Below, one piece after another: positions 9,866-42,953 of a stretch of DNA of 64,000 bases; within the stretch, counting starts at the first letter, position 1; every line of letters begins with the position of its first letter. The notes beneath the pieces were generated by a model. That model was given only the letters and a program-made list of their open reading frames with translations. It did no database searches and was not told the origin of the DNA. Source of the stretch: Sialis fuliginosa (lineage: Eukaryota > Arthropoda > Insecta > Megaloptera > Sialidae); the NCBI GenBank assembly GCA_961205875.1, contig OY540819.1, positions 3,350,501-3,414,500 of the forward strand, written 5' to 3'. Made by a program: the position numbers and the translations under genes.

Positions 9866-10358
9866 TAAGGTACTGGCTCCAGTCTTGGATCAAATTAGAA
9901 ATATTTGTTGATATTTGATTACTGTCAATACTGAATGATAATTTAACTCTAAAAATAGCTCAATTTGATGACAATTGGACAATGGATGTCAAAATGATGG
10001 ACATTTAAACTAATTATTAGTGTAATTTATTTATTAATTATTATATTTTCATAGCATCTGCTTTACATTGTTTCAAATTTTACGATTCCTTATTTTTTAA
10101 TATTTGTGTCGTTGTATTATACTTATCACTTTGCAATCATTAACATGTGTTGCCTATTACTGATTTTACTTTATCCATTACTGTAGAAAAAATATAAAAT
10201 ACTATATTTGCGAACTTTGGTAATTAAATTGATTGAGTAAAGAGGTATTTGTTTTATAAGTAACATGAATTCATAAGAATTACAAAAAAGTAAGTTTATC
10301 AATCCCAAAAAATAGTATACCTACTCTAAAAGAGGCCAAGACTGGTGCCAGTACCTTA
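9866..10358 (+). mobile_element. Family C MITE, complete copy
   Basis: The 493-bp element has inverted ends TAAGGTACTGGCTCCAGTCT and CCAAGACTGGTGCCAGTACC-TTA, flanked by TA on both sides. Its interior is shared with 30376-30909 and 42415-42953 (for example GGTAATTAAATTGATT). Inside each terminal repeat ACTGGCNCCAGT is itself a palindrome. There is no transposase, so it would depend on a partner element. Confidence 0.85.
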
Positions 10359-30375: not shown

Positions 30376-30909
30376 TAAGGTATACTGGATATGACCCCAA
30401 TAATGGCTATTTTTAAATTAAATGTACTGAATTAAAAATATTTATTTATATTTGATTAACACCATTTCTGAATATTAATCTATATACATTTAACTGTCTT
30501 ACAGCGGGATTTGATGACAATCGGCCAATTAGTGTCCAAATGGTAGAATATAAACTAATTATTAGTATAATATATTTATTAATTATTATATTATCATAGC
30601 AACTGCTTTACATTGTTTCAAATTTGACGATTCTTTCTTTTATATCTTTTGTGTCGTAGTACTTATCATTTTGTAATCATTAGCAAGTGTCCATCACGCG
30701 TACTCATTACTGGTTTTACTTTATCCGTTACTGTAGAAAAAACATAAACAAAATAAAAGGTTATAATTTAAAAAAACAAACTATATTTGGTGACTTTGGT
30801 AATTAAATTGATTAAATAAAGAGTTACTTGTTTTATTAATTAAAGCCAGTCAATCACAAAAACAGTAAACCTTGCTCTTATAGCGGTCATAACTGGTGCC
30901 AGTACCTTA
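30376..30909 (+). mobile_element. Family C MITE, copy 3
   Basis: It ends ACTGGTGCCAGTACCTTA; the left end TAAGGTATACTGG has a small deletion relative to the family. The interior is close to 42415-42953. Confidence 0.85.
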
Positions 30910-31007: not shown

Positions 31008-31203
31008 CACTGAAAGAAATATCGTTCATTATTATTGAGAAACGCATTCAAAAACCATGAATTCATAGTAATAATGAAGGAATACTTTATAAGTAAAAAA
31101 GTAATGAATTTTTCTTTAATATAAACTATTTCTTCATTATTACTATGAATTCATGGTTGTTGAATGCGTTGCATAATATTAATGAACGATATTTCTTTCA
31201 GTG
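31008..31203. mobile_element. 196-bp palindromic MITE, CACTGAAAG ends, TATA duplicated
   Basis: The arms start CACTGAAAGAAATATCGTTC and mirror each other for about 80 bp, including CCATGAATTCATAGTAATAA. TATA lies on each side (31004-31007 and 31204-31207). The right TATA is also the first four bases of the next element's terminal repeat, so the two elements abut. Confidence 0.85.
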
Positions 31204-31963
31204 TATATGTTACCGGCAATGTATGAAATACGGCATTCTATAGAATTCCTAGGTATTCTATAAAATGCCTAAAATCACCAGGCAATGTATGAAATGAATT
31301 TAATTATATACATTTCCTAGGCATTCTATAGAATACCTAATTGATAACCGGCAATGTATGAAATATAAACATAAATAGGGTGATCTCATTTAATACGTAC
31401 CCGGACAAATATTTGACTGAATTGATTATATAATATTTAAGGTTCCGTAATTGTTTCTGTGAATTTGTTATTTTAACAGTAAGGGCCTTAAATCTTACTT
31501 AATAGACGTCTGGACTAATATGTTATTGAATGTTTAAATAATGTCTAAGGTTTTTATTTTTTATTTTAATAATTTTATATCATACTTAATATGCATCTGA
31601 ACTAATATTTTATTTTATTTATTATAATAAATATCAAATGTTATACTATTATTTATGTGGTTTTGTTATTTTAACAATGAAAGACCTAAATCTTACATAA
31701 TTTGAATTTGGACTTTTTAAAATTAATTAAATAATACCTATCTGCTTTATTAATATCATTTTGTCTTTTATTTCATACATTTCCTAATATTATCTTGGCA
31801 TTCTATAGAATTCCTAGGGATTCTATAGAATGCCTAGGCAAAGTATATAATAAATTTCTATTAAACAAATATTTCATACTTTGCCTGAAATCGTCAGGCA
31901 TTCTATAGAATTCCTAGGAATTCTATAGAATGCCTGAATTACATACATTGCCGGTAACATATA
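31204..31963. mobile_element. Element with terminal clusters of phased palindromes
   Basis: The inverted ends TATATGTTACCGGCAATG-TATG match for 22 bases. Each end carries a cluster of ATTCTATAGAAT dyads: 31235, 31255 (one change) and 31323 on the left; 31800, 31820, 31900 and 31920 on the right. Paired dyads are exactly 20 bp apart around CCTAGG. 31894-31937 is a perfect 44-bp palindrome. GGCAATGTATGAAAT recurs at 31215, 31281 and 31350, with diverged inverted copies on the right. The centre (31385-31750) is AT-rich and noncoding. Confidence 0.9.
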
Positions 31964-42414: not shown

Positions 42415-42953
42415 TAAGATACTGGCGCCAGTCTTAGATATGACTCCAGTAATGGCTATTTTTAAATTAAATGTATTGAATTAGAAATTGACTACTGCCA
42501 TTTCTGAATATTAATCTACATATATACATTTAAATGTCTTACAGTGTGATTTGATGACAATTGCTCAATAGGTATCAAAATGATTGACATTTAAACTAAT
42601 TATTAGTATAATTTATTTATTATTATATTATCATAGAAACTGCTTTACATTGTTTCAATTTTTTTTGTCGTAGTAATTATCATTTTTTACTAATCATTAG
42701 CAAGTGTCCATCACTGCGTGCCCGTTACTGGTTTTATTTTATCCATTACTGGAGAAAAAATATAAACAAAATTAAAGGTTATAATTTAAAAAACAAACTA
42801 TATTTGCGGACTTTGGTAATTAAATTGATTAAATAAAGAGTTACTTATTTTATTAGTAGCATGAGTTCATGAGAATTACAAAAAATAAGCCCGTCAATCA
42901 CAAAAACAGTAAACCTTGCTCTTATAGTGGCCATAACTGGTACCAGTACATTA
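42415..42953 (+). mobile_element. Family C MITE, copy 4
   Basis: Left end TAAGATACTGGCGCCAGTCT, right end ACTGGTACCAGTACATTA. Here the subterminal ACTGGCGCCAGT is a perfect 12-bp palindrome. It aligns along its length to 30376-30909. Confidence 0.85.

Follow-up and report, generated by a model that had tools for sequence, protein, structure and literature searches.

The interval 31204-31963 of the window (the whole 64-kb stretch of Sialis fuliginosa DNA that was analysed) consists exactly of a 752-bp element (31208-31959) and a flanking 4-bp TATA target duplication on each side (Table 1). No open reading frame of 120 aa or more overlaps 31208-31959. The preliminary description had given the interval 22-bp inverted ends; the ends are inverted, but the 22 bp resolve into an 18-bp perfect terminal inverted repeat (TIR) and the TATA duplication, which is itself palindromic. 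Beyond the perfect TIR the symmetry of the ends is weaker, in 64-nt arms that are 84% complementary. A Mariner-type MITE (CACTGAAAGAAATATCG..., TA duplication) at 31008-31203 of the window adjoins the left side of the element, and the TATA target used by the element includes the right TA of this MITE.

Re-reading of the sequence recovered all seven of the 12-bp dyads previously described near the two ends (that at 31255 carrying one change), as well as the perfect 44-bp palindrome. Three pairs of dyads are each spaced exactly 20 bp apart around CCTAGG, as had been stated, and the seventh dyad is single; the other gaps between dyads measure 68 bp on the left and 80 bp on the right. The module GGCAATGTATGAAAT (module A) occurs three times on the left and, in inverted form with one change in each copy, three times on the right, in agreement with the earlier account. 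Allowing up to 2 mismatches, GTTACCGGCAATGTATG gave 3 matches in the 64-kb window compared with 0 in 100 shuffles. The 15-bp module motif was found at 22 places with a score of at least 13, whereas 200 dinucleotide shuffles gave 0.075 on average and 2 at most; with the looser score of 10 it was found at 37 places, and the shuffles gave 18 on average and 29 at most. The motif was drawn from the element itself, making this enrichment test partly circular. By eye, 11 of 15 positions are the same in module A and the dyad half (GGCATTCTATAGAAT), so that the ends look like one 15-bp site present in several copies and orientations.

Table 1 Features of the element and its flanks (window positions; offsets and counts refer to the copies read with both flanks)
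Feature	Position	Strand	Remarks
Left target-site duplication TATA, preceded by G (R TATA)	31204..31207	.	Register from flank covariation, 37 copies
Element TGTTACC...GGTAACA, non-coding	31208..31959	+	752 bp
Left TIR, 18 bp perfect, TGTTACCGGCAATGTATG	31208..31225	+	
Module A1, GGCAATGTATGAAAT	31215..31229	+	Offset 8; 41/41 left ends (up to 2 mismatches)
Left dyad pair, 31235-31246 and 31255-31266, 20 bp apart around CCTAGG	31232..31269	.	Offsets 28, 48; 41/41 left ends
Module A2, GGCAATGTATGAAAT	31281..31295	+	Offset 74; 40/41 left ends
Single left dyad, ATTCTATAGAAT	31323..31334	.	Offset 116; 39/41 left ends
Module A3, GGCAATGTATGAAAT	31350..31364	+	Offset 143; 39/41 left ends
Non-coding middle with diverged direct repeats; differs between subfamilies	31365..31765	+	Alignment of 32 copies
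Inverted module A, one change, GGAAATGTATGAAAT	31770..31784	-	Right offset 176; 37/41
Inner right dyad pair, 31800-31811 and 31820-31831	31797..31834	.	Pattern 29/49/129/149; 37/41 right ends
Inverted module A, one change, GGCAAAGTATGAAAT	31871..31885	-	Right offset 75; 37/41
Perfect 44-bp palindrome with outer right dyad pair, 31900-31911 and 31920-31931	31894..31937	.	Pattern 29/49/129/149; 37/41
Inverted module A, one change, GGCAATGTATGTAAT	31938..31952	-	Right offset 8; 41/41
Right TIR, 18 bp perfect	31942..31959	-	
Right target-site duplication TATA, followed by T (TATA Y)	31960..31963	.	Flank comparison across copies

Insertion boundaries and target site

The register of the target duplication was determined by flank covariation, in which each left-flank base was paired with each right-flank base and identity was compared with permutations. 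With 37 copies, the three strongest position pairs all fell in the 4-bp register (in an earlier run three of the four strongest did so, the other lying in a register 2 bp longer), placing the ends of the element at TGTTACC and GGTAACA with a 4-bp duplication. A 2- or 4-bp AT-repeat duplication read from GTTACC was dropped, as covariation shifted the boundary by one base on each side to give a 4-bp TATA.

Identical 4-bp duplications were present in 39 of the 41 copies read with both flanks. TATA was found on both sides in 36 copies, and TACA, TATG and CATA on both sides in one copy each, which support the 4-bp register; the duplications are mismatched in L006 (TATA/TAAA) and L037 (CATA/CACA). 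RTATA on the left together with TATAY on the right was exact in 34/41 copies, with Y at +5 in all 41 and R at -5 in 39.

Empty sites were sought in the collected sequences, where a paralogue spans four of the insertion points. Around the L026 insertion, the host repeat has a single TATA (ATCTATA^TACATTT) in several of its copies, including window 30386-30809 and L010, and small indels in others. A 52-column paralogue alignment at the L039 insertion point likewise contains a single TATA; at the L036 and L040 insertion points the paralogue has diverged at the junction and TATA is absent. The paralogous empty sites with one TATA indicate that the ends of the element are the insertion boundaries. 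Together with the identical duplications, they bear out the proposal that this is a transposable element whose ends coincide with insertion boundaries in other copies. Three unoccupied copies of the repeat that hosts the L026 insertion lie in the window, at 30386-30809, 42419-42826 and 9893-10230.

Copy number, subfamilies and recent movement

The palindromes are not confined to the window, as a genome-wide check of the kind suggested earlier showed: the dyad pair ATTCTATAGAAT-N8-ATTCTATAGAAT occurs at 264 sites in the 392-Mb, 20-contig genome, with 0 sites for the reversed-pattern control. The end TATATGTTACCGGCAATGTATGNAAT has 288 exact occurrences (146 + 142) in the same 392 Mb, again with 0 for the reversed pattern. 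The window itself lies on contig C11. A genome search with the whole interval, in which 40 of 818 first-look candidates were scored, gave at least 192 matches; at least 20 of these, the window copy included, are at least 680 bp long with 93-100% identity. Of the 20 contigs, at least 14 carry the family. Aligned with 31 further copies, all 32 being 690-900 bp long, the window copy is 95-98% identical to 18; the other 13 are 75-87% identical, with the ends kept and a different middle. At two loci (C3:24604519-24605447 and C4:27714696-27715604) both ends are of the GAAAT type, compared with the usual GAAAT/GTAAT pair.

Longer forms are also present: 3.7 kb in L021 and L059, 4.8 kb in L061 (the 3.7-kb form plus a nested repeat), 3.6 kb with other nested material in L065, and 7.0 kb with a nested transposon in L067. 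L021 (contig C2) and L059 (contig C10) are non-coding copies that are 99.8% identical over 3,711 bp, and each has its own TATA duplication; this identity between copies on different contigs, each with its own duplication, indicates that the family has moved recently. As no transposase gene was seen in the copies read, this movement was presumably in trans.

Several loci carry further insertions or duplicated flanks. Within the 3.7-kb form lie an inverted repeat (CTCCCTCTGTCCCATAATACTTGATAG...; by eye at about 3841-4082 of L021 and 2743-2985 of L061) that we take to be Stowaway-like, and a nested element with CTAGGGTTTGCAATCCCGC ends (by eye at about 617-2045 of L061) that is presumably hAT-like. 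In L010 two left ends lie 103 bp apart (2187-2290), and by eye the inner copy appears to be a case of self-nesting, with the TATATA in the left end of another copy as its insertion site. L015 and L018, both on contig C1, are flanked alike by a larger repeat containing AT-rich units in tandem, and are therefore probably one old insertion that was multiplied with its host repeat and counted twice; L054 is the same locus as L015.

Conservation of the dyad array

Left dyad offsets of 28/48/116 were kept in 39/41 left ends (odd ends in L020 and L039), and right offsets of 29/49/129/149 in 37/41 right ends, the odd right ends reading 29/109/129 in L039 and L043, 49/69/149/169 in L037 and 80/100 in L041. 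Those of L039, L043 and L037 look like the loss or gain of one 20-bp step, and that of L041 does not. Across the 32 aligned copies, majority-base agreement was 0.98-0.99 in the ends and 0.88 in the middle; inside the ends, modules (0.99) were scarcely more conserved than spacers (0.98).

The dyads had previously been proposed as subterminal transposase-binding sites and, judged from the sequence, putative sites of this kind remain their best reading, as the spacing of the dyads is kept in the ends while the middle diverges. Nothing observed here pointed to replication sites, the other role suggested. The fit to repeated protein-binding sites is not proof: given how young the copies are and how little the modules exceed the spacers in conservation, recent common descent alone could account for the fixed array. 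The earlier suggestion that a two-turn spacing puts neighbouring dyads on the same face of the helix holds only approximately, 20 bp being 1.9 turns at 10.5 bp/turn and the other dyad gaps being 68 and 80 bp.

For the dyads only, the alternative is a regulatory or structural function (host-factor sites, cruciforms, promoter or silencing signals), with the array kept by descent and not as transposase sites. The near identity of the ends among aligned copies means that descent alone can maintain the dyads, and the perfect 44-bp palindrome could extrude, forming a hairpin. However, much the same array is carried by both ends and is common to subfamilies with different middles, and three of the four odd right ends (L037, L039 and L043, but not L041) differ by an apparent whole 20-bp step; a function of this kind is considered rather unlikely.

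Probable assignment to the Ginger2/TDD group

The preliminary description could not name the class of the element, which the termini, duplication length and target now allow. For Ginger2, the published description gives TGTNR termini, duplications of 4 bp (5 bp in TDD-4/5) and a preference for RTATAY targets, the target comparison covering 64 elements of Nematostella (PMC2836005, accessible text). Listed members of the Ginger2/TDD group include TDD-4, TDD-5, Ginger2-1_NV and the aphid family Ginger2-1_AP, among others, and Ginger2 is thus already known in an insect (PMC2836005). The window family shares TGTNR...ACA termini (TGTTA...TAACA, with the single-copy exceptions L043, TCTTACC, and L065, GGTTACC), the 4-bp target duplication and the RTATAY preference, and since all three are matched the element at 31208-31959 is probably a Ginger2/TDD-type DNA transposon in non-autonomous, gene-less form, an assignment made from termini, duplication and target.

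The family differs from described Ginger2/TDD elements in three respects. The perfect TIR is 18 bp, with imperfect symmetry further in (the 84% complementary arms), whereas TIRs of about 50-180 bp are reported for Ginger2 (PMC2836005); the copies read, which may all be non-autonomous, are without a transposase; and the ends carry a dense array of spaced dyads and modules, whereas the word "subterminal" is absent from the main text of PMC2836005. Neither this family nor such an end array was found described among openly accessible titles and the starts of abstracts, a scope outside which Repbase and subscription papers lie. Repbase applies a rule of equal duplication length and 11 terminal bases, with one mismatch allowed (PMC4455052).

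Other groups were compared on the same features. Ginger1 shares TGTNR termini and 4-bp duplications but has a CCGG or CCGT target (PMC2836005, accessible text), and was rejected as the targets here are of the TATA type. ISL2EU (PHIS), for which an AT duplication inside AATT and a TIR usually starting with GG are given (PMC4482050, in part), was dropped in view of the 4-bp register and TGT start of the window family. IS481EU and Banshee have TGT...ACA ends, and 4-bp duplications in some families, but also duplications of about 15 and 25 bp, and are reported from parabasalids (PMC10045372, in part); with 4 bp in 39/41 copies here, these mixed duplication lengths make IS481EU a poor fit.

Alternatively, a non-autonomous element from a different superfamily that makes 4-bp duplications, Sola or one not yet described, could have converged on TATA targets. 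Sola has 4-bp duplications, which the duplication length of the window family fits, and very variable termini (PMC10741241, in part), and no Ginger2 transposase was found beside the ends studied here. Against this, the joint occurrence of TGTNR termini, 4-bp duplication and RTATAY is given for Ginger2 alone in the accessible text of PMC2836005, and convergence from another superfamily is considered improbable.

Search for an autonomous partner

An autonomous copy or transposase gene was not seen in the copies read. The lists covered 183 of the 288 exact ends, ends bearing a mutation being outside them, and the longer relative that had been anticipated, with its own transposase between the same ends, was not found among these 183; a longer coding copy may be present among the remaining 105 or among ends with a mutation. 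The long copies read were L021, L058, L059, L060, L061, L065 and L067 (L058 and L060 showing one end only), with cut-offs for listing open frames that varied from 50 to 100 aa. Open frames reached at most 114 aa in L021, L058, L059, L060 and L061 and stayed below 100 aa in L065; a six-frame Pfam scan of L061 and L065 gave one unrelated match below the cut-off. Five of the 10 copies whose second end was missing from the list were also read (L062-L066); in L062, L063, L064 and L066 one end was seen within 4.1 kb, and the sole frame of at least 100 aa was one of 101 aa in L063.

A genome search for the integrase domain rve (PF00665), with 150 of 444 candidates scored, listed none that by eye adjoins a listed end of the element. 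Two of the candidates (L056 and L057), with short frames, were read and look like Polinton/Maverick-type loci, with integrase and polymerase-like frames in L056 and integrase and ATPase-like frames in L057, the domain names being a reading of the translations. An exact 17-mer match in IMG/VR (L055) was taken as chance.

The sole long open frame met in a copy, of 1,551 aa, lies in L067 (G000:C5:27297550-27304650), between family ends that are 7.0 kb apart. Searches with the protein gave nothing in Pfam (E 0.1) or among solved structures (E 1), and one sub-cutoff NCBIfam match, to a PIN family (E 0.004). It is probably AcademX-like, judging by the length, the C-terminal nuclease-like motifs and the tail rich in cysteine. 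This raised the alternative that the window family is of AcademX type, with the 1,551-aa frame as its transposase, and AcademX duplications are indeed 3-4 bp (PMC10045372, in part). However, the frame belongs to a separate, nested 5.9-kb transposon (L067:848-6764), which has a TIR of its own (TAGCCCAGTCATATTAGG), an inverted repeat of 543 nt (99%) around the open frame, a 3-bp TAC duplication at the junctions and an empty site in at least four copies (L014, L020, L023 and L051), whereas the L067 copy outside it matches the window family. The ends of this nested, putatively Academ-like element and its 3-bp duplication differ from those of the window family, and the nuclease-type transposase that AcademX elements carry between their own ends was not seen as part of any family copy read. 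L067 was thus ruled out as an autonomous partner, and an AcademX identity for the window family is extremely improbable.

Proposed model and significance

If the assignment to Ginger2/TDD holds, the TGT...ACA ends would be recognised by an integrase-like Ginger2 transposase supplied from another locus, which would excise the element. The near-invariant GGCAATGTATGAAAT modules and GGCATTCTATAGAAT dyads at both ends would provide a binding platform for a dimeric or multimeric transposase, the subunits of which would occupy the A module beside each tip and the dyads behind it, and the bound subunits would then pair the two ends. Reinsertion by the same transposase, through a cut staggered by 4 bp at RTATAY, would duplicate TATA. 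It is possible, and put forward tentatively, that the fixed geometry of dimer sites (A modules plus dyads spaced by 20 bp, the length variants resembling whole 20-bp steps) forms a higher-order platform on which an integrase-type transposase multimerizes before synapsis, an end architecture not met for Ginger in the accessible text of PMC2836005.

Ginger-type transposons are DNA-transposon relatives of the integrases of Gypsy retrotransposons, and the excision mechanism of Ginger1 was called unknown in 2010 (PMC2836005, accessible text). Short ends, a regular array of sites and recent mobility would make this family a convenient substrate for tests of end recognition, and for annotation the analysis names a repeat family of the Sialis fuliginosa genome.
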